64,000 nt of DNA from an uncultured Sulfurovum sp. Lineage in GTDB: Bacteria; Campylobacterota; Campylobacteria; Campylobacterales; Sulfurovaceae. The notes under the pieces were generated by a model. That model did no database searches. It worked only from the letters and a program-made list of their open reading frames with translations, and was not told the DNA's origin. Positions 7,300 to 61,909 of the stretch are shown one piece after another; position 1 is the stretch's first letter, and each line of letters starts with the position of its first letter. The stretch spans positions 124,001 to 188,000 of the forward strand of contig CACVAP010000086.1 in the NCBI GenBank assembly GCA_902727895.1, written 5' to 3'. The translations under genes and the position numbers were made by a program.

Positions 7300-7990
7300 C
7301 TTTGTTCCTAGAAAATTTATAACCCAAGCCACTAATATTTTGAAACAGTTTGGCAGGTACTTTTTTTCTAATGTTCCGTATTTGACTACGAATGGCATCA
7401 CGAGACATTAGCTCATCTTGCCAAATACCCTGCTCTAACTGTTCATACCGTACAACTTCATCCTCATGTTCAAGAAAGTATTCTAAAATTTCAACTTCTT
7501 TATTTCGTAGCGTCATTTCATTTTCTTCATGTATAACTAAAGCTCTATTTTTACTATAAACATAGCCTTTGCCTAACTCTATTAAAGATGCTTCTTCTAA
7601 TTCATCAGAACATTTTTCAAAAGCTTTTACTAAATCTTCATTGGTCACTGGTTTTATAAGGTAACGCGTAAGGTTGAGTTCTATGGCAGCTAACATAAAC
7701 TCTTTGTTAGAATAAGCCGTAGAAATAAGAATACGTGTTTTTTTGTCTTTTTGGCGAACATACTCTGCAAACTCAACCCCTGACATGCCACCTAAGTTAA
7801 TGTCGAGCAACAAAATATCTGGTTGATGTTTATGATAAAGCACTATCGCTTCTTCAGCCGAGTCACTCTCATAAACCTCTTTACAGTAACGTCTTAAAAA
7901 CTCTGCAATGTATTGACGTACAGAGAGGTCATCTTCTACATAGAGAACGGTGTAATTATTCATTTTTTTTGCGAAAGATTTGTGATTCAT
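7292..7990 (-). CDS. OmpR-type response regulator linked to the Septu-like genes
   Basis: This is a 232-residue regulator with an N-terminal receiver (VLYVEDD at 15-21, phospho-acceptor D63 in LLLDINL, conserved YLIKPV lysine loop) and a C-terminal winged helix with SQIRNIRKKV. The start at 7990 has an AGGTAGGA ribosome site and forms an ATGA overlap with the stop of the HNH nuclease gene. A later ATG nine codons in has no clear ribosome site. It overlaps the CBS kinase by 8 bases, so the kinase is its likely partner. Target genes are unknown; autoregulation of the five-gene operon is a reasonable guess. Confidence 0.85.
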   Translation of the reverse strand: MNHKSFAKKMNNYTVLYVEDDLSVRQYIAEFLRRYCKEVYESDSAEEAIVLYHKHQPDILLLDINLGGMSGVEFAEYVRQKDKKTRILISTAYSNKEFMLAAIELNLTRYLIKPVTNEDLVKAFEKCSDELEEASLIELGKGYVYSKNRALVIHEENEMTLRNKEVEILEYFLEHEDEVVRYEQLEQGIWQDELMSRDAIRSQIRNIRKKVPAKLFQNISGLGYKFSRNKDD

Positions 7991-8907
7991 GCTAGTCCTA
8001 CCTTTTTAAAACCCAACTCATCAGCCATATCTTTTCTAAGTTTAGAAAATGGCTCTTTAGACAAATCAGCATTATCTTCTATCAAGTTAAAAATATCTTT
8101 TTTTATCTCTTGATAAGGAATCCCTGTTAGCTCTTGTAACTCTTTTAATCTACTTTCGGGATAGAGTTCTGCATTTTGTAGCATTTCAAAGACTATGTCC
8201 TTGTGGGCTTGATAGCGTTCGTTTAGTTTAAAGACCTCTATGTATTTGTCATATTCATTTGAGTATCGTTCTTTTAGAGGTATGTCTATGTCATCTTTTG
8301 ATTTTATGTTTAGATCTTTACAGTTATCGTTTAGATGAAGTTTGAATTTTACTTTTTCATCAAAATTAAATGAGTTTAAATAAGGATTAGTGTCTTTTAG
8401 TTCAACATCTTCATAAAACGGAATACTTCCTTTTATTTTCTTAGAATTACAAACAAAACAACAAGGAATCAGGTTAAAAATAGACAGTGCTAAATAAGGG
8501 TATCTTCCTTTATCTATAAAATGGTCTAATGTAAATTTATTTTTATTGTTCTCTTCATCATAAACATTAATAAAGTCAATATTACAATAACAGCAAGTTC
8601 TTGGATTTAAATGTTTTTCAAAAAAAGATGCAATAAGTGGTTGAAACTTTCCATCATATTTAAATATCTCTTTCAATAACGCATTATCTATACCTCTTAA
8701 TTCTACATCTTCTATAAGGTCATTTATTTTATGAGCTTCTATAGTGACAATATCTTCAAAAGTATACTCTTTAGAAAATAATTCATACTCTTCATATTTA
8801 TCTTGAACACTTTTAGCATTTTTCCCATTACCAAACTTTGTACTATTCAAAAGTTCAATATATTCACGTTTCAACTCATCTGTTAATTCAAAATCTATTC
8901 TAAGCAT
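7987..8907 (-). CDS. HNH endonuclease, PtuB-like (Septu-type defence effector)
   Basis: This 306-residue protein has an HNH/zinc-finger core at about 101-160: CCYC (105-108), LDHF with D128-H129, and CCFVC (149-153) followed by NSKK. The DH pair is the likely metal-binding catalytic site and the cysteine pairs a zinc clamp. The N-terminal 100 residues and the helical C-terminus are unassigned. It overlaps the upstream ATPase gene by 8 bases. An SMC-like ATPase paired with an HNH nuclease is the layout of the Septu (PtuAB) anti-phage system. The family assignment is by motif and context, without a database search. Confidence 0.75.
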   Translation of the reverse strand: MLRIDFELTDELKREYIELLNSTKFGNGKNAKSVQDKYEEYELFSKEYTFEDIVTIEAHKINDLIEDVELRGIDNALLKEIFKYDGKFQPLIASFFEKHLNPRTCCYCNIDFINVYDEENNKNKFTLDHFIDKGRYPYLALSIFNLIPCCFVCNSKKIKGSIPFYEDVELKDTNPYLNSFNFDEKVKFKLHLNDNCKDLNIKSKDDIDIPLKERYSNEYDKYIEVFKLNERYQAHKDIVFEMLQNAELYPESRLKELQELTGIPYQEIKKDIFNLIEDNADLSKEPFSKLRKDMADELGFKKVGLA

Positions 8908-10912
8908 TAGTACTATTCTCTTTCAATGCTTGTAGTCTGGCAATCTCTTTATCTATGGCTTCATCTTTTCCAAGTAAAACTAGCTCTATCTCTTCTAATT
9001 GGTTTTTAACTATTTTTTGTAAAAATGGTTCACCTATGATTTTTTGAATTTGCCAAAACTTTTTTTGATATTTACCATAAAACTCTATATTTTCATCTAT
9101 ATTTTTTTCTTTAATAACTTTTTCATAAAACTCTTTAATCTCATTAATCTTACCCTTTGCAAACTCTCCCATTAAACCATCTTCCATGAAGAAACTATCA
9201 CTTAATAGGGTATGGATATTTGCTCCGAAAGTTTGTTCTCGCTCTTTCAATCCATTAATTTTTTTACAGTTACCATCTAACTGTTCTTTGTTCTTAACCT
9301 CGATATCATCTTTGCTATATTTATCTAAAAAAATTATATTTTCTCTAGGCATATCTGATAATATAAAAGGAGAATGTGTAACAAAAATTAAATGATATTC
9401 ATTTTCTTTTGGAATTAGTTTTTTTTCTCTGATTTCCTCAATAAACCTTATAATAATATTCACAAATTTCTTCTGCCATTGAGGATGGAATGCTGTTTCT
9501 ATTTCATCTAAAAGAACCATTCTATTTTCATATTTTGTATCAATTAAAGTATATGTCAAGTTTGTAATAAACTTTAATAACTGTTTCTCACCAGTACTCA
9601 AACTATTAAAAGTTATATGGTTTTTTTGACTATGTATAAAATTAAAATACAATCGTCCAGAAAGATGTAACTCAGTATAAAAATCATTGCTTGAAAAAAA
9701 ATCATAAAAACTAGTAATATCTGCTTGATTAATTCCATGTATTTTATTTTTTAATTTTAATGAATTTGAATCTAATTCAAAACTATCAACCATATATTGA
9801 ATTATTCCTTCATAATTATTAATACACTCAAGTTCTTTTGTATTCATATTAAAATGCTCAAGTTCTCCTGATTTATCTTTACACGCTTCATATAAAATAG
9901 ATTTATACTTACTATATATTTCTTTTATAGTATCCAACATGATTCCCATTAATATATAAAACTCATCATTATCTTTCGTTCGATTACATATTTCTATTAT
10001 TTCATTTATTTTAATAAAAAGAAGTTTTTCAAGAAATATTTCTGAAATCTTCTTTCTATCCCAAATACTAGGAGGGTCTTTAATAATATCTACAACTTTG
10101 AAGAAAAAATAAGATGTTAAAAAACTATAAATTAAAGTTTCTTTTGTAATTTCTATTCTTTTTTCGCCTAATAATATATAATTATCGTCTATATTTTTTT
10201 GAAAAAAATATTCAATTTCCTTTAACTCCTCTATATCATCATAAATATTAGAAGAAAGATTTGTTAAATCAAGTTCAATATACATACTATCAAAAACAAA
10301 ATCTTCATTAAGAATTTTAAAAATATTAGTATTGTCTTTTAATAAAACTGAAAATTTTTTATAAAACTTATACTCTTCATTTTCTCCATGATTATCACTT
10401 CCATTATAAAATGATTGAAAATGATTGCCTCTCAGAATATTTTGACCTTCTGTAAAATCAGATAAACCATTAGTAAATAATGTTAACCAAAATAAACTAT
10501 CATGCTGAATAGTATCTTTGATATCAGTTTCATAGCTACTTTTATTAACTATACTATCCATATCAAAAGATTTAAAAGAATTTCCACCATAAGTTGTATT
10601 ATAGGTTGACGGAATATATAATTTATCTTTACTTCTAAAAATCATTATTAATTTTTTTTCTTTAATATATTCTTGTAGTTTTTCAAATCGAAAGAGTGAA
10701 ATTAATTCTAAAATTCTACTCTTCCCACTCCCATTCTTCCCAACAACAGCCGTAACATTAATATTTTTACCAAAAAAATCAGGAATATGCTCAGGATTCT
10801 CTTTAATCATTAATTCTTCACCATCATAATGACAATCAAAGCGAGAAGAAAAATTAAACCCCTGATTCTGAATATTCTTATAATCCTCAACCCACAAATA
10901 AACCAGTTCCAT
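8900..10912 (-). CDS. SMC/AAA_15-type ATPase, PtuA-like
   Basis: This 670-residue ATPase carries Walker A GKNGSGKS at 58-65, an ABC-type signature LSTGEKQ near 436, Walker B VLLDEIETAFHP near 465 and a THSPF switch histidine near 512. The long middle region is helical and A+T rich with no recognisable domain. The C-terminal QTFGANIHTLLSDSFF block is the kind seen in ATPases partnered with HNH nucleases. Such ATPases (PtuA, the AAA_15/OLD-like group) act as the phage sensor or regulator of the nuclease. Its ATG overlaps the upstream stop as TAATG, and it overlaps the HNH gene by 8 bases. Confidence 0.77.
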   Translation of the reverse strand: MELVYLWVEDYKNIQNQGFNFSSRFDCHYDGEELMIKENPEHIPDFFGKNINVTAVVGKNGSGKSRILELISLFRFEKLQEYIKEKKLIMIFRSKDKLYIPSTYNTTYGGNSFKSFDMDSIVNKSSYETDIKDTIQHDSLFWLTLFTNGLSDFTEGQNILRGNHFQSFYNGSDNHGENEEYKFYKKFSVLLKDNTNIFKILNEDFVFDSMYIELDLTNLSSNIYDDIEELKEIEYFFQKNIDDNYILLGEKRIEITKETLIYSFLTSYFFFKVVDIIKDPPSIWDRKKISEIFLEKLLFIKINEIIEICNRTKDNDEFYILMGIMLDTIKEIYSKYKSILYEACKDKSGELEHFNMNTKELECINNYEGIIQYMVDSFELDSNSLKLKNKIHGINQADITSFYDFFSSNDFYTELHLSGRLYFNFIHSQKNHITFNSLSTGEKQLLKFITNLTYTLIDTKYENRMVLLDEIETAFHPQWQKKFVNIIIRFIEEIREKKLIPKENEYHLIFVTHSPFILSDMPRENIIFLDKYSKDDIEVKNKEQLDGNCKKINGLKEREQTFGANIHTLLSDSFFMEDGLMGEFAKGKINEIKEFYEKVIKEKNIDENIEFYGKYQKKFWQIQKIIGEPFLQKIVKNQLEEIELVLLGKDEAIDKEIARLQALKENSTNA

Positions 10913-12171
10913 TAATTCTTTCCTAAAACAAACTCATCAAAACTCAAAACCTCAATACCCTCAACCACTTCATTCGTATCAAATGTAATCAACTTACATA
11001 CCTGAATATCTTTGTCCTTAAAATACTTAAACGCCCCCAACTCTCTTTTTCGCGTTTTCTCATCTTCAATATCATAAGCCACTTGATAAAGCGTTTCTTG
11101 ACTATAGAAATCAACTTCATGCTTTTCTCTCCTATACGTTACACGGTTGTCATTGGCATAAAGAACATTAAAAACCTTGTTTTCCAATGCTGTACCTAAA
11201 TTTTTAGAATGTTTAGGAGCTATCTGTAAAAAACCATTGTCATTTACATAGATTTTTTTAGAAGAACGAATTTTTTCTTTGGGTTTGGTATGGTATCTGT
11301 CCATTCGTTTAAGTAAAAACACTTCTTCAAAGTAACCAATATACTCTTTGATGCTTTTATCGCTTATATTAAAAGTTTCAGCCAATTTACTGTAGTTTAA
11401 AATACCTGTTGCCGTAGAGAGTAAGTAGAAAAAGAGTCGTTCCAACTCACTGGAGTTTCGTATGCCGTACCTTGGTACAATGTCTTGGTAGATAATATTT
11501 TTAGCATAGGCTATTAATATCTCTTTTTTTATATACTCTTGTTCTTCATCAAAAACCTCATAAAAACCACCCCATTTCAGATACTCTTCTTTGGCTCGTG
11601 CAATGGCTATTCTATTACTTATTCGTTCTATCTCATTGCTATAGGTTATCTGTTTATAGTCTAAAAATTCTTTAAAGGAAAATGTCTCTAAATGAATGCC
11701 CAAGGTTCGACCACTAAGTAATGTGTTTAAATCGTTAGAGAGTAAAGAAGAATTTGAACCCGTAATAATGAATTTAATGTCTGAACTTTCATATTTACTT
11801 TTGATAAACACTTGCCAGTTCTCAAAAAACTGAACCTCATCAAAAATAACGTAAGTTTTCCCTTGAGGATTGGCAAGTTTTAAGTATTCATCATAAATGG
11901 TATTAAGATAATTAGCATCATGCTTGTACTCTAAAAAGTAAGGCTGTTCAAGATTCACAAACAAAATATTATAAGGATTGACACCCGTAGTTAGGAGATG
12001 ATTGATTGCTTGTTTGGCTAAGGTACTTTTACCACATCGTCGTATACCTGATATGGTAATCACTTGTCTAAGTGGAAGATAGTCTATAAGCTGTGTTAAC
12101 TGCTCACGTCTAATTGAACTACTAAGTTGCTTATTCCAATGAAGATTCTGCTCTATGAGTATATTTTTCAT
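10912..12171 (-). CDS. AAA_14/DUF4143 ATPase
   Basis: This 419-residue protein has the family hallmark GIRRCGKST (Walker A, about 42-50) and Walker B YVIFDEVQFFENW. The C-terminal DUF4143 region contains a nuclease-like EVDFY...QVAYDI stretch resembling a degraded PD-(D/E)xK fold. Proteins of this family are widespread, often in accessory regions, and their function is poorly known. It is the first gene of the tight five-gene operon, joined to the PtuA-like gene by a TAATG overlap, which suggests translational coupling. It could instead be an unrelated accessory gene that shares the promoter. Confidence 0.8.
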   Translation of the reverse strand: MKNILIEQNLHWNKQLSSSIRREQLTQLIDYLPLRQVITISGIRRCGKSTLAKQAINHLLTTGVNPYNILFVNLEQPYFLEYKHDANYLNTIYDEYLKLANPQGKTYVIFDEVQFFENWQVFIKSKYESSDIKFIITGSNSSLLSNDLNTLLSGRTLGIHLETFSFKEFLDYKQITYSNEIERISNRIAIARAKEEYLKWGGFYEVFDEEQEYIKKEILIAYAKNIIYQDIVPRYGIRNSSELERLFFYLLSTATGILNYSKLAETFNISDKSIKEYIGYFEEVFLLKRMDRYHTKPKEKIRSSKKIYVNDNGFLQIAPKHSKNLGTALENKVFNVLYANDNRVTYRREKHEVDFYSQETLYQVAYDIEDEKTRKRELGAFKYFKDKDIQVCKLITFDTNEVVEGIEVLSFDEFVLGKN

Positions 12172-42692: not shown

Positions 42693-43100
42693 CTAGTTTC
42701 GTATGGCTTTAATACAACAATCAACAGCTAATTCTTTGTCTAGCTTATTTGTAGCAATAAATAACATAAATTTTGTTTTTTCTTTTTGAGATACATCACT
42801 ATTAAAAGAAGAACCATTAATGTGAAGAAAGAATTCAAAGGCACTTAAAGCTACTCTTTTATTTCCATCAGGGAATGCTTGAGATTGTTCAATTCTCATT
42901 AAAATATAAATTGCTTTATCACAAAGTGTAGGATAAAGCTCTTTTCCAAAAACATATTGGTCTATATTTTCAAGAATAGACTGTAAGTGACTTTCTTTAT
43001 TAGCTGGTAAAGGTAAATATTCTTGTCCATCATTTTGCAAAATTTTAAAATGGAATAATTTTAATTGAGTAAGAGTTACTTGCTTATACTTTTTATGCAA
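42693..43100 (-). CDS. Fic/Doc-like protein lacking the catalytic histidine
   Basis: This is a 135-residue protein of Doc size. The Fic core reads QAFPDGNKR at 74-82, whereas the active family motif starts with histidine (HxFxD/E-GN-K/R). Here glutamine Q74 takes its place; the codon is CAA, and the reading frame around it is intact. Without the histidine, AMP- or phosphate-transfer should be lost, so this may be an inactive toxin, a variant enzyme or a regulator. It overlaps the upstream partner gene by 8 bases. Confidence 0.78.
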   Translation of the reverse strand: MHKKYKQVTLTQLKLFHFKILQNDGQEYLPLPANKESHLQSILENIDQYVFGKELYPTLCDKAIYILMRIEQSQAFPDGNKRVALSAFEFFLHINGSSFNSDVSQKEKTKFMLFIATNKLDKELAVDCCIKAIRN

Positions 43101-43602
43101 GTGCTTCTAAGACCTCTTGATTATTAGAGATAAAAGTATTCATAAACTTTGATGCTGCATCTGCTTCTTTAGCTCTTGGTAAATATTCATTTATAAACTT
43201 AATAGCACCATTATTCAACTCTATCAATTCATCTAATTTTGAAGATAAAGAGGGATAGCCCTTAAAATGTCTTTTCCCTCGTATATATTCTTTATCAAAT
43301 TCTTTTTTTATATTCAATAATTCATTTATTGCAAAAAATAAATTATCACTATCTTCTACTTCCCATCTATCGAAATTATTAATAAAAACTTCTTGTGCTA
43401 AAGGAATATTTTTTCTCTGAGACTCAAGAAAAGTTACTAGAAAATCATTTGTTTCATTTTTGAGTTTCTCTGAAACCTTTACATACTTATTCTTACTTTT
43501 CTCAATTTTATAAATTGGTTGTTTAGCAATAATCTTTTGATAATCTTCTAATGATACATCACTACTATTTATAGCTAATGCACTTAAAGCTTCTGTAAGC
43601 AT
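43093..43602 (-). CDS. Helical partner protein of the Fic/Doc-like gene
   Basis: This 169-residue soluble helical protein was not recognised as a known antitoxin (Phd is about half this length). It contains charged helices (ELLNIKKEFDKEYIRGKRHFKG) and no DNA-binding motif that I can identify. It overlaps the Fic-like gene by 8 bases, the layout of a toxin-antitoxin pair with the partner first. A role as inhibitor is inference from position. Confidence 0.6.
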   Translation of the reverse strand: MLTEALSALAINSSDVSLEDYQKIIAKQPIYKIEKSKNKYVKVSEKLKNETNDFLVTFLESQRKNIPLAQEVFINNFDRWEVEDSDNLFFAINELLNIKKEFDKEYIRGKRHFKGYPSLSSKLDELIELNNGAIKFINEYLPRAKEADAASKFMNTFISNNQEVLEALA

Positions 43603-52332: not shown

Positions 52333-54510
52333 ATGTCATTACCTAAAATTATTTGGTCAAAAATTGATGAAGCACCAGCACTAGCAACTTATTCGTTGTT
52401 ACCAATTGTAAACGCATTTACACAAGCAGCAGGAGTTTCAGTTGTAACTTCAGATATTTCACTTGCAGGTAGAGTTCTTGCAGCTATGGGACTAGCAGAA
52501 GATGAATTATCTAAACTTGGAGAAGTTGTTTTAGAAGCAGATGGAAATATTATTAAACTTCCAAATATTTCAGCATCAGTAGGACAATTAAAAGATTGTA
52601 TCGCAGAACTTCAAGGTCAAGGTTACGATATTCCTAACTACCCTGAAAACCCAGCAAATGCCGATGAGGAAGCTATTCAAGCTAAATACGCTGGTTGTCT
52701 TGGTTCTGCTGTTAACCCAGTACTTAGAGAAGGTAACTCAGACAGAAGAGCAGCAAAAGCTGTTAAGAAGTTTGCACAAAATAACCCACATAAACTTAGA
52801 GCATTCCCAGAGAATCCAAAGTCTTATGTAGCACACATGGAAGGTAACGGAGACTTCTTCGGAAATGAAAAATCTGTAACTTCTGACAAAGACCAGTCAG
52901 TAACCATTGCGTTAAATGGTAACACATTAACAACAATCGATGCACTTGCTGGAGAGATTCTTGATGGTACATACATGTCAGTTGCTGCACTAAATTCTTT
53001 CTATGCAAAAACAATTGAAGATGCAAAAGCAAATGATGTTTTATGGTCACTACACCTTAAAGCTACTATGATGAAAATTTCTGATCCAATTATGTTTGGT
53101 CATGCTTTCAAAGTATTCTTCAAAGATGTATTCGCTAAACATGCAGACACATTTGCAGAATTAAATGTAGCACCTAACCAAGGTATGTCTGATTTAGAGA
53201 AAAAAATTGCTGGTCATGCTAAAGAAGCTGAGATTAAAGCTGATTTCCTAGCAGCACTTGAATCTGATGCTCCTAAACTTGCAATGGTTGATTCTGATAA
53301 AGGAACAACAAACTTTAACGCTTCTAACGATGTAATTATTGATGCTTCTATGCCAGTTGTTGTTCGTGAAGGTGGTAAACAGTGGGACAGAACAGGTGCA
53401 GCAGTTGAATGTGTGGCTGTTATTCCTGATTCTACTTACGGTATGTTCCATGCTGAAATGGTAGCTGACTGTGTTGCGAATGGTCAATACGACGTTACAA
53501 CTATGGGTGCAATGCAAAATATTGGTCTTATGGCACAAAAAGCAGAAGAGTATGGTTCACACCCAACTACATTTGAACTGGCTGAAGCTGGTACTGTAAC
53601 TGTAACTGGTGCAGATGGTGTATTAATGAGCTTTGAATGTGAAGCTGGTGATATTTGGAGAATGTCTAGAACAAAAGATATTCCAATTAAAGACTGGGTA
53701 AGACTTGCTGTTGAGAGAACAAGACTTGAAGGTATTCCTGCAATTTTCTGGCTAGATGCAGACAGAGCGCATGATGCTGAGATTAAAAAGAAAGTAGATG
53801 CTTACCTTACAGACCACGACACTGATGGTTTAGACATTCAATTCATGAATGTTACTGATGCTACTAGATTTACAAATGGTAGAGTTAGAGAAGGTAAAAA
53901 TACAATCGCTGTTACAGGTAACGTTCTTAGAGATCACCTTACAGACATGTACCCAATTTTAGAGCTTGGAACATCTGCTAAAATGCTTTCAATCGTTCCT
54001 TTAATTGCTGGTGGTGGACTTTATGAAACTGGTGCTGGTGGATCTGCTCCAAAACACGTTGACCAATTCCTAGCTGAAGGTCACTTAAGATGGGATTCAC
54101 TTGGTGAGTTCTTGGCATTGGCTGAGTCATTAAGATTTATTGGTCAAAAACATTCAGATGCAAAACTAGCTGCACTTACAGCTGGACTAGATGCTGCAAA
54201 TGAAGGTTACCTTGACAACAACAAAGAGCCAGGAAGAAAAGTTGGTCAACCAGACAACAAAGCTTCTCACTTCTTCGTAGCACAATACTGGGCTGACGCA
54301 CTTGCAAATGGAGCTGATGCTGAATTGGCTGCTAAGTTTGCACCTGTAGCTGCTGAACTTAAAGCAAAAGAAGCAACTATTATTGAAGAGCTTCTTGCTG
54401 TTGAGGGTCAAGCTCAAGACATCGGTGGTTACTTCCATCCAAATGACGAGTTAGCTGAAAAGGCAATGAGACCTTCTGCTACTCTTAATGCTATTATTGA
54501 CGCTATCTAG
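52333..54510 (+). CDS. icd: Isocitrate dehydrogenase, NADP-dependent monomeric type
   Basis: This 725-residue enzyme of the TCA/reductive TCA cycle converts isocitrate to 2-oxoglutarate. The sequence is the monomeric (IDH-II) type, distinct from the dimeric Icd family: SKIDEAPALATYSLLPI at the start, NPVLREGNSDRRA near 135-147 for substrate binding, and ETGAGGSAPKH near 562-572. The last 177 codons and the terminator occur again, altered, 4.3 kb downstream. This copy is full length and appears functional. Confidence 0.95.
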   Translation: MSLPKIIWSKIDEAPALATYSLLPIVNAFTQAAGVSVVTSDISLAGRVLAAMGLAEDELSKLGEVVLEADGNIIKLPNISASVGQLKDCIAELQGQGYDIPNYPENPANADEEAIQAKYAGCLGSAVNPVLREGNSDRRAAKAVKKFAQNNPHKLRAFPENPKSYVAHMEGNGDFFGNEKSVTSDKDQSVTIALNGNTLTTIDALAGEILDGTYMSVAALNSFYAKTIEDAKANDVLWSLHLKATMMKISDPIMFGHAFKVFFKDVFAKHADTFAELNVAPNQGMSDLEKKIAGHAKEAEIKADFLAALESDAPKLAMVDSDKGTTNFNASNDVIIDASMPVVVREGGKQWDRTGAAVECVAVIPDSTYGMFHAEMVADCVANGQYDVTTMGAMQNIGLMAQKAEEYGSHPTTFELAEAGTVTVTGADGVLMSFECEAGDIWRMSRTKDIPIKDWVRLAVERTRLEGIPAIFWLDADRAHDAEIKKKVDAYLTDHDTDGLDIQFMNVTDATRFTNGRVREGKNTIAVTGNVLRDHLTDMYPILELGTSAKMLSIVPLIAGGGLYETGAGGSAPKHVDQFLAEGHLRWDSLGEFLALAESLRFIGQKHSDAKLAALTAGLDAANEGYLDNNKEPGRKVGQPDNKASHFFVAQYWADALANGADAELAAKFAPVAAELKAKEATIIEELLAVEGQAQDIGGYFHPNDELAEKAMRPSATLNAIIDAI

Positions 54511-54547
54511 TCGATAATACTTTTTCTACCCCTTTTCTTTGGGGTGG
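53977..54547 (+). repeat. Direct repeat, left copy (icd 3' end plus terminator)
   Basis: This segment (icd codons 549-725 and the following hairpin) is repeated at 58260-58826 in the same orientation. By eye the coding parts differ at about 14 of 535 positions, nearly all silent; the right copy has A-to-T and E-to-A changes. The 3.7 kb between the copies holds the hipA, hipB and LRR-MBL genes. Confidence 0.9.
54526..54547 (+). terminator. icd terminator
   Basis: CTACCCC at 54526-54532 pairs with GGGGTGG at 54541-54547 (one G-T wobble) around an 8-base T-rich loop. It ends 3 bases before the hipA stop on the opposite strand, so it may serve both. A T-rich stretch lies before the stem. The right-hand copy is a tighter hairpin. 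Confidence 0.65.
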
Positions 54548-54550
54548 AAA

Positions 54551-55831
54551 TCAAAGATAAGATACCAAAGGTATTTCTAACGCAATCTCTTTAAATTTCA
54601 AAGTTCTTTCAAAAATAAATTTAGATAGCTTCTCTATAAAATCAAACTCTTCTTTTGTTAATAACCTTCTATCTACTATATTTTCTTTCAAAACTTTAAT
54701 AATCATATCACATTGCTTTAATAAAATCTTAGAGACAAGTTTATAATTTACTCCCACATCTTCGGAAAACTCTCTTAACTGATAAGCAAATACCTTATTC
54801 GGGTTAAATTCATCTCCATACGCCATGGCTAGGTTGTGGTCAAAGTCATACATCATGACACAGAGAAGGTCATAGAATGGTGTAGGCTTTATACCTTTTT
54901 TATCAACAAAAAAAGAGAAATTCTTACCATGAGCATCAGAATTACCAATGATAAGATTAAACATCGCCCAGTTAAGTAGTTCAAGTTGTGCAACAGCAGG
55001 AACAGAACAAAGTTTGGTGGCTTCAAAAAGTTTTTCAAAACTTGCACCTTCTCGAATATGTTCTACATCTCTGCTTGAACCAAAGTTTTGTTCATATTTG
55101 TAGGTTGGTGGTAGGTTCGTTATTTGACATGCATCAATGATGTGAAGACGTTCCACAAAATCATTTTTATAAATCCTATCAAATCGTTCTATTAAAAGCG
55201 TTGGGTGTGTAGCAAACTTTTTCATTTCAACGTTTGCTACGTTTAAGCCAATTTTTTTTGCTAAAGTCATACAAAAAAGTTCATTGGCTACAATATGTAA
55301 ATACTTTTTAGTTTGAAACTTCATAATATGCGTTGAGCTTAGTGTTCCATTAGCTAAGCCGATCTTACTCTCTTTAATAATCACAGGTAGTTTAGCCTGA
55401 ACTCCTGCCAAAGAGAGTCGTACTTTTTTATCCCAAATTGCAATGCTTTTACTCTCTAACTCCTCAATTCGTCCCGTTAGCTCCTTCAAACTAATCTCAC
55501 GAAAAATAGGCTCATTCGCTTCACTTTTATTACCAAAAAATAATGCTCCTGCTGTGTCGTAACCAATAGAGTGTATAATGGCAAAAGTATTATTTTTAGA
55601 AATATGTGCAAAAGAAGCAATATCTTCTAAACCCTCTCCCTCAGGAATAAGATTTTCCAAAAATCTCTTAATCGTTATGGATGAAAACTCTTGGTCAAAT
55701 GGTAAATGAGGAGAGATAGAAAAACCTTTTTCTATCCAAGGTTTATCATACTCAAAATGGTATTTTTCTTCACTATCGATAGAGAGCTTTCCGACTACTT
55801 GGTTTTGCATACTAACTTTTAAACTATTCAT
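54551..55831 (-). CDS. hipA: HipA-family serine/threonine kinase toxin
   Basis: This 426-residue HipA has all the catalytic landmarks: the glycine-rich loop region RLSLAGVQAKLP (138-149), in which S140 matches the autophosphorylated serine of E. coli HipA; D299 in IIGNSDAHGKN as catalytic base; and D321 in FYDLL for metal. The N-terminal HipA domain includes FLENLIPEGEG. HipA proteins stop growth by phosphorylating glutamyl-tRNA synthetase or other targets. It overlaps hipB by 8 bases and is the last gene of the LRR-MBL/hipB/hipA operon inside the icd duplication. Confidence 0.9.
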   Translation of the reverse strand: MNSLKVSMQNQVVGKLSIDSEEKYHFEYDKPWIEKGFSISPHLPFDQEFSSITIKRFLENLIPEGEGLEDIASFAHISKNNTFAIIHSIGYDTAGALFFGNKSEANEPIFREISLKELTGRIEELESKSIAIWDKKVRLSLAGVQAKLPVIIKESKIGLANGTLSSTHIMKFQTKKYLHIVANELFCMTLAKKIGLNVANVEMKKFATHPTLLIERFDRIYKNDFVERLHIIDACQITNLPPTYKYEQNFGSSRDVEHIREGASFEKLFEATKLCSVPAVAQLELLNWAMFNLIIGNSDAHGKNFSFFVDKKGIKPTPFYDLLCVMMYDFDHNLAMAYGDEFNPNKVFAYQLREFSEDVGVNYKLVSKILLKQCDMIIKVLKENIVDRRLLTKEEFDFIEKLSKFIFERTLKFKEIALEIPLVSYL

Positions 55832-56090
55832 AACTATCCCAATCTTTCATGCTCATCTCCATACCTAAAGCTTCCATGATTTGAAGTAAAGTATTGAGCC
55901 TTACACCCTCGAAACCATTTTCTATTTTGTTGAGGGTGTGGGCTGATATGTTACAGAGCATGGCACAATCAAGAGTATTTAAACCTTGTTGTGTTCTTCT
56001 TGCTTTTATGAATTTTCCTATGTTTTCTAGGCTTATGGGTTCGTTGAATAATGGTGCTTGGGTTGGTTTTACTTTTTTACCGTTAGACAT
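55824..56090 (-). CDS. hipB: HipB-like HTH antitoxin
   Basis: This is an 88-residue protein with an XRE-type helix-turn-helix at about 25-80 (IGKFIKARRTQQGL, CNISAHTLNKIENG, LLQIMEALGMEM). It should repress its own promoter and restrain HipA. The ATG lies one base after the stop of the LRR-MBL gene (TAAAATG), and the end overlaps hipA by 8 bases, so all three are coupled. The N-terminal 20 residues are a short extension. Confidence 0.87.
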   Translation of the reverse strand: MSNGKKVKPTQAPLFNEPISLENIGKFIKARRTQQGLNTLDCAMLCNISAHTLNKIENGFEGVRLNTLLQIMEALGMEMSMKDWDSYE

Positions 56091-56091
56091 T

Positions 56092-58023
56092 TTATCTCCA
56101 CCTCCGATTACACTTTTCTAAAAAATTATATTTTTTATACATACCTAAAGAGTAACTCAAACCAATACATTCAACAAAACCTGAATTTAATTGTTTAGTA
56201 ACCAAAATAGGATGACTATTTTGAGCATAAATATCATCAATAACACTTTTTGAAGGATGATACCCTAAACTTTTAGTACTAACTGACATTGGACACATAT
56301 ATACATTATTATCAAGTATAGCTTTATCTAAATTTTTAACTGAACCATGATGTGGTATTTGAATTGTTCCAATACTATCCCATAATCGACTAAACTGTAG
56401 TTTTGGATTAACTTTTTTTAATTCTATATCACCTAATTCTGTATCACCTGTATAGAGGCAACTAACTCGATTTGTATAATTTCCTACTTGTTCTATATCT
56501 CGTATTCGTATATCTTCAAAATCAACTAAATAACTTCTTTTTATCAAATGAGTGTTAGGAAAATTTAACACTCCTGAATATAACAGCATAGAGTTTTGAT
56601 TTATTTTTCCATCTACTTCATTGTATATATTTTTTATTTTATTTTTTATTTTTACAGTTTTTTTATAATCTTCAAATATAACTGCTAAAGTATAATCTAC
56701 ATCTGTTTTTAATTTATCAATATCTAAATCTGTTCTTTCTTTGAGTAGTTCTACTAACTCTTTTTGTCTATCTGTATATTCATGATTATAAGGAATAAAT
56801 ACCCAATCTAAATCATTGGAAAGTTTTAAAGGAATGCCACTATCAATTTCACTATTATGTGATATATTTTCAATATTTATAGCTTCCATATTCTCAATAG
56901 GTCGCTCTTCATTATTACTAGGTTTTATTCTAATAATTTTTGTCTCTTTTCCAAAAAACTGTTCAGGGTTTTTTAGTAAACCTAAAATATTCACATTTAA
57001 TACTCTATATAAATTTATAAGAAAAACAATCTCTTTTTCTTGAAGTAAAGGCATAACTACTTGTTTTATCTTTGTACGATTCTTTAAGAGTTTGATTTTA
57101 TTAACATGGTCAGCATCAAAATGAGAGATAAACAAAATATCTATCACTTCATCTTGTTCAAAAGCTTTTTCAATTATGGGTTGAACAGTATCTTTGCTTG
57201 ATCTACTTCCACAGTCATATACAATTGTAAAATTTGAATTACGGTATTGATGCTTCTCAGCATAAAAAGCACCGTGACCAATTGGATAAAAAAAGCGTTT
57301 TATAGATATTTTGAAATCAGGAGTAAGGTTTCCTATCTTTTTTGGTAGTTTAGCTATTTTATTATTCCCTAAATCTAATTCTTTTAAGTTTTTTAATTCA
57401 AAAATACCATTTGATAATTCCTCAATCTCATTTGATGACAAATATAGCTCTTCTAATTGTGTAAGTTCAGAAATTTTATTAGGTATTTTTTCTATTAAAT
57501 TTTCTCGTAAATCAAGAGTTTTTAAATTATTCAATTGAAATAAATTTTTAGATATAACATTTAGTTCATTATTGTCTAAATCTAGTTCGTTTAAATTTAT
57601 AAGTTTTGAGATATGACTAGGGATACTAGTTATTTTATTACTACTTAAATCTAATTTTTCTAAGTTAATTATTTTTGCTATACCATTAGGAATAGAAGTT
57701 AAGTTATTTCTACTTAAATCAAGTGTTTTTAAAGAAGTTAATTTTGATATTTCATCAGAAATTTTTCCTATTTTATTATTATCTAAATTAAAATATTCTA
57801 ATTTAGAAAGGTTTGATATTTCATTGGGTATTTCAGTTATATTATCTGTTGAACGTAATTCAAGATATTTTAAATTACTTAACCGTAATATGATTTTAAA
57901 TAGTGAATCATTAATATTTTTACCAATAATTCTAAGCTCAATAACTTTATCATTTTCTAAAGTATGACTAGTTAATTTAATACCTTTATCTTCTAATTCT
58001 TTAATAATTTCTAAATCACTCAC
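56092..58023 (-). CDS. Leucine-rich-repeat plus metallo-beta-lactamase fusion protein
   Basis: This is a 643-residue protein starting at GTG with an AAGGGAAG ribosome site. Residues 46-233 form about eight leucine-rich repeats of 23 residues (LxxLDLxxNxIxxIPxxIxxL). Residues 240-620 form a ComEC/Rec2-like metallo-beta-lactamase domain: SHFDADH (H301, D303, D305, H306) for metal, LYTGD at 523-527 and PHHGS at 557-561. There is no membrane segment, so it is not a DNA-uptake channel. It is the first gene of the operon with hipB and hipA. An LRR recognition part joined to a hydrolase is reminiscent of defence proteins; the activity is unknown. Confidence 0.85.
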   Translation of the reverse strand: MSDLEIIKELEDKGIKLTSHTLENDKVIELRIIGKNINDSLFKIILRLSNLKYLELRSTDNITEIPNEISNLSKLEYFNLDNNKIGKISDEISKLTSLKTLDLSRNNLTSIPNGIAKIINLEKLDLSSNKITSIPSHISKLINLNELDLDNNELNVISKNLFQLNNLKTLDLRENLIEKIPNKISELTQLEELYLSSNEIEELSNGIFELKNLKELDLGNNKIAKLPKKIGNLTPDFKISIKRFFYPIGHGAFYAEKHQYRNSNFTIVYDCGSRSSKDTVQPIIEKAFEQDEVIDILFISHFDADHVNKIKLLKNRTKIKQVVMPLLQEKEIVFLINLYRVLNVNILGLLKNPEQFFGKETKIIRIKPSNNEERPIENMEAINIENISHNSEIDSGIPLKLSNDLDWVFIPYNHEYTDRQKELVELLKERTDLDIDKLKTDVDYTLAVIFEDYKKTVKIKNKIKNIYNEVDGKINQNSMLLYSGVLNFPNTHLIKRSYLVDFEDIRIRDIEQVGNYTNRVSCLYTGDTELGDIELKKVNPKLQFSRLWDSIGTIQIPHHGSVKNLDKAILDNNVYMCPMSVSTKSLGYHPSKSVIDDIYAQNSHPILVTKQLNSGFVECIGLSYSLGMYKKYNFLEKCNRRWR

Positions 58024-58181
58024 ATCTTCCCTTTAAATACAATTTTACTTTATCTTTAAAAAAGTATATCACAATATATTACAAAATACAATTATAGCTA
58101 TATAAATAGTATAATAAAAACTTTTTTCCTTAAAATATATTTATAGTCGTATTTAAAATAAAATTATTACAACTTCAACTA
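58024..58181. other. A+T-rich cassette edge and promoter region
   Basis: This gap between the LRR-MBL start and the icd remnant is very A+T rich and should hold the minus-strand promoter of the LRR-MBL/hipB/hipA operon. No inverted terminal repeat, target-site duplication or integrase gene is visible. Confidence 0.4.
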
Positions 58182-58793
58182 GTTGATTCTGACAAAGGAA
58201 CAACTAACTTCAATGCATCTAACGATGTAATTATTGATGCTTCTGTACCTGTTGTTGTTGCTAAAATGCTTTCAATCGTTCCATTAATTGCTGGTGGTGG
58301 ACTTTATGAAACTGGTGCTGGTGGATCTGCTCCAAAACACGTAGACCAATTCTTAGCTGAAGGTCACTTAAGATGGGATTCACTTGGTGAGTTCTTGGCA
58401 TTGGCTGAGTCATTAAGATTTATCGGTCAGAAACATTCAGATGCAAAACTAGCTGCACTTACAGCTGGACTAGATGCTGCAAATGAAGGTTACCTTGACA
58501 ACAACAAAGAGCCAGGAAGAAAAGTTGGTCAACCAGACAACAAAGCTTCTCACTTCTTCGTAGCACAATACTGGGCAGACGCACTTGCAAATGGAGCTGA
58601 TGCTGAATTGGCTGCTAAGTTTACACCTGTTGCTGCTGAACTTAAAGCAAAAGAAGCAACTATTATTGAAGAGCTTCTTGCTGTTGAAGGTCAAGCTCAA
58701 GACATCGGTGGTTACTTTCATCCAAATGACGAGTTAGCTGCAAAGGCAATGAGACCTTCTGCTACGCTTAATGCTATTATTGACGCTATATAA
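58182..58793 (+). pseudogene. Truncated, internally deleted second copy of icd
   Basis: The remnant matches icd codons 319-344 (58182-58259) and then jumps to codons 549-725 (58260-58793), leaving out 204 codons exactly in frame. The 5' half and the middle of the gene are missing, so no active enzyme can result, though a 175-codon open frame survives from 58266. The 5' piece is about 90% identical to the intact gene by eye, the 3' piece about 97%, so the two parts have different histories or the 3' piece has been gene-converted. Confidence 0.88.
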
Positions 58794-58826
58794 TCAATAA
58801 TCCTTTTTCTACCCCTTTTGGGGTAG
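58260..58826 (+). repeat. Direct repeat, right copy (icd 3' end plus terminator)
   Basis: This is the partner of the left copy at 53977-54547. The homology runs past the stop codon through the hairpin and then stops. With the left copy it brackets the hipA/hipB/LRR-MBL cassette, as expected after single-crossover integration of a circle carrying an icd segment, or after duplication followed by insertion. Confidence 0.9.
58809..58826 (+). terminator. Terminator of the icd remnant
   Basis: CTACCCC at 58809-58815 pairs perfectly with GGGGTAG at 58820-58826 around a TTTT loop. It is a cleaner form of the intact icd terminator. The following 266 bases up to the CHAT gene are A+T rich and should hold that gene's promoter; nothing else is seen there. 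Confidence 0.7.
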
Positions 58827-59092
58827 TTAAAAAACTAAACTACTTTAATCAATTCTCCAATTTAAGCTTAATTGCTACCTCTAATAACTTTTCTAGAAAT
58901 TTACTAAAAATTTACTAACTTTACTATCTATAAAAGTATAAAATATAGAAACTCTAGTAATAATCGTAATTATAGAAAAGTACTATCAAGAAGAAAAAGA
59001 GTTTCACCACTTTATTCATATTTCTCATCGTTAGAGATTAACTTATCTATTTATAAAAATGCTAGTATGCCATGACTAAAGGATCCTTCACA

Positions 59093-61909
59093 ATGAAAAA
59101 AATAATCTTAATGATAATATTCATAACGAATATTATCTACGCCAATACTGTACAAGAGTTATGTGATACAGAAAGTCAAAAAGAGCAACCAATACAGAGT
59201 ATTTTAACAAAGTACTGTCTACCTATAGCAGAGAATTATGAGGGAAACAAGGAGTATGCTTATGCCTCTTGGTACTATCTTATTGTGGGTAAAAATAAAC
59301 ATAATCAAGAGGTACTTGCACCCCAAATGACTCAAAATGATAATCTGGCAAATATTGCACACAGTTTTGTTTTGAGTGCTAATTTTAAAGAAGCTGAAAA
59401 ACTCTATCACTATTTTTTAGCAGCACATAATGATAAAGAGTCAGATGAAGGAATCAGAGCAGACTATCAAATGTTAATGAGACTTTATCCTCAGCATCAT
59501 GAACGGCTTAATCAAGGTTTAACACTGTGGCACACAATCTATACTCAAATAGAAAGAAATAGCTCAACCATAGAGGGTTATAAGACATTGGTTTCAAAAT
59601 ATAATAAAGAAGGAAAGCATCAGCAGTTATTAGACCTTTATCAAAAGATGTTACCTTTGTATCAAGAGAGTTTCGGAGAAGAGAACTATAATATCGCTAC
59701 ACTGTATGATAATATTGGAGCAAGTTATAACTCCCTTGGTCACAATAGTCAATCGTTAACGTATGCTAAAAAGGGTCTACAATTACGAGAAAAAATTCTA
59801 CATAAATATGATGAGAAATTAGCACACAGCTATAATAATGTGGGGCTATCCTATCAAATCTTAGGCAATCAAAAAAAAGCATTAAACTATTTTGAAAAAG
59901 CGTTTATTATACAAAGTAAAACAAATGCATTGGAAAACAAATTTACAGCACAACTCTATAGTGCTATAGGAAAATCATATGAAGAGCTAAGAGTTTACAA
60001 TAAATCATTAAGTTATCACCAAAACGCCATCGCAATGTATGAAAAAGTTTTGGGTAAAGAGCATATCGATACAGCCACGGCTTATAATCATCTAGGAAGC
60101 TATTACCTTGTAACCAAAGAGTATGCTCAAGCAATAGAATATTTTAACAAGACATTGAGAATACGAGAAAAAAAGCTTTCTTCTGAAGATATTGCTTTAA
60201 TTCAAAGTTATGCTAACTTAGGAGAAAGCTATAAACGTTTGGGAGAGAGTGATAAAGCCCTACCCTATTTTTTAAAGAATCTAGAGATAAGTGAAAAAAT
60301 TGAAGGCGTCGGCAGTACTGTTTTGGCTTCTAATTATGAAAGTGTTGGTTGGACTTATTTTACTCAACAAAAATATGATAAAGCCTATACCTATGCGAAA
60401 AAAGCATTTGATATTTTTTTAAAAAATAGAGAGAGCTACTTTAACCAACTAAATGCTATTGATAAAGAACACTATTTAAAAAAGAGCCAAAGTAGTATGT
60501 TTCTATTGATTGAAAGTGCCTATTTATCAAAACAGAAGCATCTTTTACCCCTTATGTTGAATGATTGGCTACGGTACAAAGGGTCTCTTTTTGACAGTGA
60601 GAACATGGTTGCTACACTTTATAATAGAACCGAAGATACCCAAATTAAAGCTCAAATCGATAGACTTAACAGCAAAAAAAGAGAGCTTGCTCACCTTTAT
60701 CAATCTACGGCAAAGGATGTTCACGCTATTAAAGCATTAGAAGAACAAATATCCACCACACTAACAAAGTTAAATCATTTAAGTGACGTGGATAGATTAG
60801 AAAACATAAGTTATCAAGATATAGCTAAAAATTTAAAAGAGCATGAACTCTATATTGACTTTGCAAAAGTGGCTGAAAACTATTTTATTTTTACCATTGA
60901 TCAACAAGAGAACATTACGGTAAACTTTATAGATGTTCTGCAAACTAAAAGCATTAACAAAGCAATATTATCCTTTAGAAGAGAAATAAAACAAGCATCA
61001 CAAAACTCAAAAGAAAATTTGGACACACTCTATAACTTATTAATGAAAAAGTTTATAGAAGAAGATACTTTTAAAGATAAAAAGAGCTTGATTGTATCAA
61101 CAGATGGGCTATTAAATATTCTACCTTTTGAAGTACTTTATAGTTTAAATGAAGAGAACTACCTTATTGAAAAAAGAGAGCTGCGATATGTCCCAAGTGG
61201 AAAAGAGTTATTGCGACTCTATCAACAACCTACTGCCCAAGTAAATAATGAAATGATTCTCTTCTCAAATCCCGATTTCAATAGCAATGTTCTAACTTCT
61301 AATAGGAGTTCAAGACTAATTAGTAGTTCGTTACAAAAAATGAACTTCTCAGCCCTTCCAGGAACAGAAGCTGAAGCTAAAGCCATAAAACAGCTATTAA
61401 CAGCTCAATCAATCAAAGAATATCAAGGTACACAAGCCACAGAATATAATCTGCTTCAGGTTAGACAACCAAAAATATTACATATTGCCACACATGGTTT
61501 TTTTATTAAAAGTCATCAACCCAATCCCATGTTAAAATCAGGTATTGCTCTTGCTGGTGCGAATCATCACAATGAAGGTGTAGTTACAGCACTTAAACTC
61601 TCGGGATTAAATTTAAAAGGAACAGAGTTGGTTGTTTTATCTGCTTGTGAAACAGGTCTTGTCAACATCAACTCAATGGATAGTATTAGTGGACTAAGTA
61701 AAGCCTTTATACAAGCAGGTGCAAAAAATATCATTGTTAGTTTATGGTCAGTTAGTGATATGGGAACCAAAGATTTCATGAGCCTTTTTTATCAAGAGAT
61801 TCAAAGTGGGAAAACCTATCCAGAGGCACTTAGAGAAGCAAAGTTAACAATGATAAAACAAAAAATACCACCCTTTATTTGGGCTCCATTTATTATGAAT
61901 GGAATATAG
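59093..61909 (+). CDS. Exported TPR-CHAT protein (caspase-like protease)
   Basis: From the chosen start MKKIILMIIFITN (AGGA ribosome site; an upstream in-frame ATG at 59072 would spoil the signal peptide) the protein has 938 residues. A signal peptide covers about 1-17. Many tetratricopeptide repeats follow (about 180-460, e.g. ATLYDNIGASYNSLGHNSQSL-type units), then a helical linker, then a CHAT domain with H801 in HIATHGFF and C852 in LSACETG as the catalytic dyad. CHAT proteases act in defence and regulated proteolysis, but most are cytoplasmic; this one should work in the envelope. A membrane-protein gene follows after 6 bases. Confidence 0.88.
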   Translation: MKKIILMIIFITNIIYANTVQELCDTESQKEQPIQSILTKYCLPIAENYEGNKEYAYASWYYLIVGKNKHNQEVLAPQMTQNDNLANIAHSFVLSANFKEAEKLYHYFLAAHNDKESDEGIRADYQMLMRLYPQHHERLNQGLTLWHTIYTQIERNSSTIEGYKTLVSKYNKEGKHQQLLDLYQKMLPLYQESFGEENYNIATLYDNIGASYNSLGHNSQSLTYAKKGLQLREKILHKYDEKLAHSYNNVGLSYQILGNQKKALNYFEKAFIIQSKTNALENKFTAQLYSAIGKSYEELRVYNKSLSYHQNAIAMYEKVLGKEHIDTATAYNHLGSYYLVTKEYAQAIEYFNKTLRIREKKLSSEDIALIQSYANLGESYKRLGESDKALPYFLKNLEISEKIEGVGSTVLASNYESVGWTYFTQQKYDKAYTYAKKAFDIFLKNRESYFNQLNAIDKEHYLKKSQSSMFLLIESAYLSKQKHLLPLMLNDWLRYKGSLFDSENMVATLYNRTEDTQIKAQIDRLNSKKRELAHLYQSTAKDVHAIKALEEQISTTLTKLNHLSDVDRLENISYQDIAKNLKEHELYIDFAKVAENYFIFTIDQQENITVNFIDVLQTKSINKAILSFRREIKQASQNSKENLDTLYNLLMKKFIEEDTFKDKKSLIVSTDGLLNILPFEVLYSLNEENYLIEKRELRYVPSGKELLRLYQQPTAQVNNEMILFSNPDFNSNVLTSNRSSRLISSSLQKMNFSALPGTEAEAKAIKQLLTAQSIKEYQGTQATEYNLLQVRQPKILHIATHGFFIKSHQPNPMLKSGIALAGANHHNEGVVTALKLSGLNLKGTELVVLSACETGLVNINSMDSISGLSKAFIQAGAKNIIVSLWSVSDMGTKDFMSLFYQEIQSGKTYPEALREAKLTMIKQKIPPFIWAPFIMNGI

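Follow-up and report, generated by a model that had tools for sequence, protein, structure and literature searches.

A HipBA operon with a leucine-rich repeat–metallo-beta-lactamase gene behind a HipBA-type promoter in an uncultured Sulfurovum sp.

In HipBA toxin–antitoxin modules, HipB habitually represses its own operon through operators located in the promoter. Another group of proteins with a bearing on the locus described here are nucleases with a metallo-beta-lactamase (MBL) fold. MBLs related to the one reported in this work are DNases, which are activated in the Hachiman, AVAST and Canu systems; they are held inactive by insertions and are freed by a partner protease (Tuck et al., PMC12799240). 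According to this paper, the nuclease is always encoded by a gene of its own; neither HipA nor leucine-rich repeats (LRRs) are mentioned in the main text. We have analyzed a 64,000-nt window of the genome of an uncultured Sulfurovum sp. (GCA_902727895.1, contig CACVAP010000086.1, 124,001–188,000; positions below are those of the window), in which a gene encoding an LRR-MBL fusion precedes hipB and hipA. Each of the modules (LRR, MBL and HipBA) is already known. In the open-access papers searched, neither the LRR-MBL fusion nor effectors lodged within a HipBA operon downstream of its promoter were found. The best explanation of the locus, to which we assign a probability of roughly 55%, is a HipBA operon in which a sensor-effector gene, encoding an LRR solenoid fused to a ComEC-like MBL, occupies the slot between promoter/operator and hipB and would act in abortive-infection-type defence.

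The three genes are located on the minus strand in the order LRR-MBL, hipB, hipA. The LRR-MBL gene (58023–56092) starts with GTG and encodes a protein of 643 aa. It is followed by hipB (55824..56090), which encodes the 88-aa antitoxin and putative repressor, and by hipA (54551..55831), which encodes the 426-aa kinase toxin. LRR-MBL and hipB are one base (56091) apart, and hipB overlaps hipA by 8 bp; the order and the junctions reported in the initial annotation are thus borne out by the coordinates of the open reading frames (ORFs). The Shine-Dalgarno sequence of hipB, GGAGGTGGAGA = GGAGGTGGAGATAAAATG (about 56095–56105, minus strand), is embedded in the 3′ end of LRR-MBL, the last codons of which make the hipB ribosome-binding site (AAT CGG AGG TGG AGA TAA A ATG). 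Furthermore, the final ~20 residues of LRR-MBL extend past the end of most of its homologues. Both features are expected of a gene that was spliced onto a hipB start already in place. Judging from the sequence, the translation of LRR-MBL is coupled to that of hipB. The reading frames and catalytic residues of the operon are all intact, and a generic terminator scan yielded nothing useful. The coupling of the three genes is more than chance, because it recurs in the genus and because the promoter is conserved.

The region in front of LRR-MBL (58024..58154, minus strand) is a promoter/operator of the HipBA type. It contains a sigma70-like promoter (TTGTAT-17-TATACT) inside a conserved core at 58044–58097 and a repeated operator-like box, found at 58141–58154, 58084–58097 (exact AAATACAATTATAG) and 58035–58048. 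The positions of this box, AAATACAAYTATAG, are −131, −74 and −25 here and −132, −74 and −25 in another member of the genus, G1195, which carries a plain hipBA operon; they are similar in G1197, G1177 and G1222. Five hipBA loci, from the genus and a neighbouring one, have conserved boxes at matching positions; the boxes are absent before the internal hipB genes. In an alignment of 63 columns that reaches to the ribosome-binding site, the promoter shares 92% identity with the hipB promoter of G1195 and 90% identity with the promoter of an MBL gene in G1197. The box alone is not unusual in the window, where it has 6 matches with at most 2 mismatches against 4.3 expected. As it is too short to stand out, the evidence is the clustering of four of these six matches within the 120 bases of the promoter, together with the conserved spacing. 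A pattern search with the promoter core gave three occurrences in 34 genomes of the genus, each heading a hipBA operon, and the reversed control pattern had no match in the same 34 genomes. The promoter that precedes hipB in the plain operon of G1195 instead precedes LRR-MBL in the window and the MBL gene in G1197. This is most simply read as an insertion of LRR-MBL and of the MBL gene between the promoter/operator of hipBA and hipB. By such an insertion both genes would have come under the control of the antitoxin-repressor.

The 34 genomes of the genus were also searched with both proteins. Only two MBL-family genes were found, one in the window genome and one in G1197, and both are located directly upstream of orthologous hipBA genes, at a distance of 1 bp and 16 bp, respectively. 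The MBL of G1197 has 352 aa and no LRR. Its identity to the window MBL is 31%, against 86% for HipB and 76% for HipA; the hipB orthologues of the genus are 74–89% identical to the window HipB. A tree uniting the two MBLs is rejected (p-AU, from the approximately unbiased test, 3e-5). The window MBL groups with copies from Patescibacteria and marine Flavobacteriaceae, and the G1197 MBL with another group. Since the two are not sisters, the comparison shows that two different members of this rare family have been captured independently by one hipBA lineage, upstream of its hipB. The linkage of the MBL to hipBA suggested in the initial annotation is thus repeated in the genus by an independently acquired copy. 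In G1187 (L199 2–799, 792–2331), hipB is overlapped by 8 bp by an ATPase-TOPRIM gene (PADLOC ATPase-Toprim_I-B 8e-20), which is cut off by the contig end and adds a third kind of cargo to this hipBA lineage. In G1195, hipBA has its own promoter and lies 222 bp behind Mokosh-like genes, and in G1177 and G1201 the gene upstream of hipBA was not assessable. A coupled upstream gene is present in three of the six hipBA loci of the genus and in none of about 22 assessable loci elsewhere (p about 0.006; 0.005 with 24 loci), the distant hipBA of the family, the phylum and plasmids having no such gene.

LRR-MBL differs from hipBA in its composition. Its G+C content at third codon positions (GC3) is 0.115, the lowest in the window, and is low in both halves of the gene, whereas hipA and hipB have values of 0.258 and 0.348, respectively. 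Because the low GC3 is seen in both halves and not in hipBA, the fusion seems to have arrived as a single gene from a low-GC donor. This difference in composition, the occurrence of hipBA alone elsewhere and the cargo that varies by species (LRR-MBL, MBL, ATPase-TOPRIM and the distant Mokosh-like genes) also fit the main alternative, which we consider rather unlikely: HipBA would be a mere addiction or stabilizing module beside defence cargo, the loss of which is punished by hipBA, and HipA and HipB would have no part in the function of LRR-MBL. Against this alternative stands the position of the cargo behind the hipBA promoter, with junctions that overlap or measure 1–16 bp and with the promoter kept at the head of the operon in two species. 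A location behind the promoter, and not beside the operon, speaks for regulation.

The two downstream genes form a HipBA module, in which an antitoxin gene of the helix-turn-helix (HTH) type comes first and overlaps the gene for a HipA kinase with both N- and C-terminal Hip domains. HipB contains an HTH domain detected by Pfam and matches the NCBIfam model couple_hipB (4e-13). In HipA, the Pfam domains Couple_hipA (5e-21) and HipA_C (2e-49) are found. HipA aligns with the solved HipA-family toxins 4pu5/4pu3 over residues 4–404 (E 1e-98), and its catalytic loop NSDAHGKN (D299, N304) and the FYDLL motif are aligned to 4pu5. The locus resembles the type II HipBA modules (4pu3/4pu5) in that hipB precedes hipA with an 8-bp overlap, the HipA domains are complete, the catalytic loop is present and operator boxes head the operon. 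It differs from them in the foreign effector gene which, in this genus, stands between the promoter and hipB.

The LRR half of the fusion protein (residues 1–237; 57313..58023, minus strand) is an intracellular-type solenoid with matches to Pfam LRR_8/LRR_4, of which LRR_8 covers five stretches (E 1.6e-35). In the full-length structure prediction this half was poorly modelled, as the alignment rows lacked the LRR. Hence it was modelled separately with AlphaFold, which gave a regular solenoid with a predicted local distance difference test score (pLDDT) of 87 and a predicted template modelling score (pTM) of 0.86. The MBL half (residues 238–643; 56092..57312, minus strand) is a ComEC-like metallo-hydrolase (Pfam Lactamase_B 7e-7). 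It keeps all metal motifs, namely HFDADH (301–306), TGD (525–527), PHHG (557–560) and HP (589–590), and these are conserved across 46 aligned sequences. The residues singled out in the initial annotation are present: D303 and H306 belong to the MBL motif, and D299 is part of the HipA catalytic loop. The PADLOC profiles LmuA (4e-12), PDC-M48B (6e-12) and RTasMBL (1e-6) give weak and local matches to the MBL half, and several homologues match the Avs1a profile. The best Foldseek match is the MBL domain of ComEC (9ic4, E 7e-9). By fold and profile, the MBL half is assigned to the ComEC-like defence-nuclease superfamily (LmuA, RTasMBL, Avs1a, PDC-M48). The PADLOC matches make it a relative of anti-phage effector nucleases, which supports the initial annotation on this point. 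The next structural matches are the phosphorylcholine esterase Pce, RNase Z, CPSF73 and RNase J. They would suit an enzyme that cuts a phosphodiester other than DNA, such as RNA, a signal nucleotide or a phosphorylcholine-type ester. We regard such a substrate as unlikely, because the best fold and profile match is the ComEC DNase domain and the relatives recognized by PADLOC come from systems in which the MBL was shown to be a DNase (PMC12799240).

Measured by the spacing between HxDxDH and PHHGS, the MBL is ~125–130 residues longer than ComEC, and the extra segment is mostly predicted to be ordered, with a few low-confidence loops. Among the described systems, the gated MBL pro-nucleases (HamM of Hachiman, Avs1a of AVAST, the MBLs of Lamassu and DRT, and CanC of canu; PMC12799240) share with the MBL half the fold, the ComEC-like motifs, a unit of ~360–400 aa, the PADLOC matches and the defence contexts; in size, the ~125–130 extra residues would suit an insertion of the gating kind. 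They differ from it by the N-terminal LRR fusion and the HipBA coupling seen here. An assignment to Lamassu, AVAST or DRT was rejected, since LmuB/SMC, a STAND Avs protein and a reverse transcriptase are absent and the only operon partners are hipB and hipA. Like the nucleotide-binding LRR (NLR)/STAND receptors, LRR-MBL joins an LRR to an effector domain in one protein. In contrast to these receptors, its LRR is N-terminal to the effector and no NACHT/STAND NTPase domain was detected in it by Pfam; with this core domain missing, the protein was not filed among them. The LRR type III effectors XopAC, XopAE and XopL were also rejected, as the NCBIfam scores of 79–89 bits are to be compared with cut-offs of 450–600 and the similarity is confined to the repeats.

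We propose the following course of events for a HipBA operon that carries a sensor-effector gene. HipB would bind the operator boxes and hold all three genes at a low level. Infection or stress would lead to the loss of HipB and to derepression of the operon, so that LRR-MBL and HipA rise. Recognition of a protein of the invader or of the damaged cell by the LRR would release the MBL, which would then degrade DNA. As a second arm, HipA would phosphorylate its target and halt growth. The net outcome would be defence of the abortive-infection type. A broader view, which we put forward tentatively as a possible generalization, is that in this genus HipBA may serve as a regulatory socket for foreign defence effectors, with the antitoxin as the safety switch of the nuclease; LRR-MBL would then be a one-protein, protease-independent counterpart of the LRR receptors that gates a DNA nuclease directly. 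If the proposal is true, a classic toxin-antitoxin operon of debated purpose is a control unit for interchangeable anti-phage effectors, and chromosomal HipBA has a directly testable role. LRR-MBL would extend the family of gated nucleases by a member that has a recognition domain in place of the activating protease. Through the comparison of the promoters, the question whether HipB binds comes down to a single 130-bp region, present in three species.

Several points weigh against this proposal. The GC3 contrast between LRR-MBL and hipBA may mean that the joining is perhaps too recent for co-adaptation. The boxes are putatively assigned to HipB by conservation alone, and outside the genus hipBA as a rule carries no cargo. 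The LRR fusion is without parallel, and comparative support for LRR sensing is confined to seven Bacteroidales loci with a neighbouring LRR_5 gene, described below. Finally, the operon contains no trypsin-like or caspase protease, which the characterized MBL relatives need. A caspase-like TPR-CHAT protein (CHAT 9e-74) with an exported-looking N-terminus is encoded at 59072–61909 (plus strand), ~1 kb from LRR-MBL. Given this distance and the caspase activation of related MBLs in canu (PMC12799240), it might be thought to activate the nuclease in the canu style, which appears extremely improbable. The gene is located on the opposite strand, a fragment of the isocitrate dehydrogenase gene idh lies between the two, and the N-terminus looks exported, for which reasons the protein was set aside as a canu-type caspase. 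In addition, the CHAT gene is not beside idh in the relatives examined, and in canu, CanA precedes canC within one operon.

Elsewhere the MBL family is widespread, with ~99 homologous loci from many phyla; of 98 loci in the genome collection 80 were retained, and viral contigs and plasmids carry further ones. At the same time the family is rare: it was found in 4 of 397 genomes of the phylum of the window (its own genome counted), in 3 of 395 of the Winogradskyella phylum and in 1 of 369 of the Psychrobacter class (centre genomes counted). A single-sequence search of viral contigs gave no match; alignment searches did match. No match was obtained in phage records. None of the 94 readable homologous ORFs is fused to an LRR, as they begin at the MBL itself, and hipBA is near the MBL in only 1 of the 99 loci. 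A widespread LRR-MBL-HipBA trio was rejected on these counts. The refuting case named in the initial annotation, that most homologues lack hipBA, applies to the wider family and not within the genus, where the linkage recurs. The proposed link to defence islands fared better. The homologues are often located in type I restriction-modification (R-M) operons, in prophages, or beside NACHT genes, RloC/PrrC-like ATPases and toxin-antitoxin genes. The type I R-M gene hsdM is near 13 of the MBL loci, and in Psychrobacter hsdS, the MBL gene and hsdR overlap. AAA_13/PrrC-like ATPase genes overlap or abut the MBL gene in L042 and L055, a NACHT gene precedes it in L008, and prophage-type contigs carry it near integrase-like genes. 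In the closest homologue, L027, the MBL gene is followed by BrnTA. Type I R-M operons that contain an MBL gene (L032, L036, L044, L080) or PrrC-like ATPases resemble the window locus in having an effector gene inside the operon of another system, with overlapping junctions. The difference is that the host operon is hsdMSR and that neither an LRR nor HipBA is involved.

The single locus with Hip genes near the MBL, L099 (8488–11119), belongs to a metagenome-assembled genome (MAG) of the Bacteroidaceae, in which hipB, hipS and hipT are followed by an MBL-family gene 20 bp downstream. Hip modules are common in this lineage. As one match among ~99 loci in such a lineage, a linkage beyond chance is unproven. 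The tripartite HipBST modules (L099; PMC8262856) also consist of three coupled genes including an HTH protein and a Hip kinase; the third gene there is a split-off N-terminal HipA domain, in place of the predicted LRR-nuclease of the window. The existence of such modules, the arrangement in L099 and the translational coupling of LRR-MBL to hipB could suggest that LRR-MBL belongs to the toxin-antitoxin module as its third component (a regulator, a substrate or an extra inhibitor of HipA) and is not a weapon. This is improbable in view of the MBL family, whose members mostly occur by themselves or are linked to R-M and other defence genes, and of the HipA orthologues at 53–84% identity that are kept without LRR-MBL.

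An LRR_5 gene is adjacent to the MBL gene on the same strand in seven Bacteroidales loci. The enrichment is significant (7 of 114 close same-strand genes vs 6 of 1155 other genes, p 4e-5). The neighbouring LRR_5 proteins have another LRR type than LRR-MBL, and since at least some of them look secreted, the adjacency is treated as suggestive only. In an Alistipes MAG (L074 8007–9992), the gene for a protein with PLD and LRR_5 overlaps the MBL gene by 4 bp, which is a second coupling of LRR and MBL, in separate genes. In L032, L036, L044, L080 and L022, the MBL gene precedes hsdR, and a gene for a YgjP-like metallopeptidase comes directly after hsdR in all five; in type I R-M operons, the nuclease may have this peptidase as its protease partner. 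Subtilase (Peptidase_S8) genes are located 2–30 bp downstream of the MBL gene in L071 (11189–15361), L104 (11187–13235) and L089 (2964–6938), a further setting in which nuclease and protease genes are neighbours. In L012 (same order; 9146–10324, minus strand), an MBL-family gene lies among CRISPR-Cas-like genes, as read from the sequences.

The operon is flanked on the left by a complete idh gene (52333..54510, plus strand), which encodes a monomeric isocitrate dehydrogenase, and on the right by an incomplete duplicate of the idh 3′ end (58171..58819, plus strand). The second copy is identical to 53976–54536 at 545 of 561 positions (97%) and includes an 89-bp block matching 53276–53364. In relatives, idh is directly followed by apparent methyltransferase and restriction genes or by a VapBC-like pair, as judged from the sequences themselves. 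In view of the duplication and of these varied genes, the 3′ end of idh has the look of a site of exchange. The position of the cassette between direct repeats of idh, the low GC3 of LRR-MBL and the state of the genome, a draft of 105 contigs with 4% contamination, could point to an assembly or binning artefact or to a recent, meaningless insertion. Such an origin is very improbable: the junctions of LRR-MBL with the promoter and with hipB lie in unique sequence, G1197 repeats the order with another MBL, and all frames and catalytic residues are intact.

Two further loci of the window were recorded. Three overlapping genes on the minus strand at 7987–12171 encode an HNH protein (PDC-M62B 4e-50), a PtuA-like AAA ATPase (PDC-M62A 1.5e-83) and an AAA/DUF4143-type ATPase (PDC-S01 1.6e-101), and look like a Septu-like candidate defence cluster. 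At 42693–43602 (minus strand), a Fic/Doc-like gene (PADLOC PDC-S23 2.5e-15) overlaps a small partner gene without a profile match.

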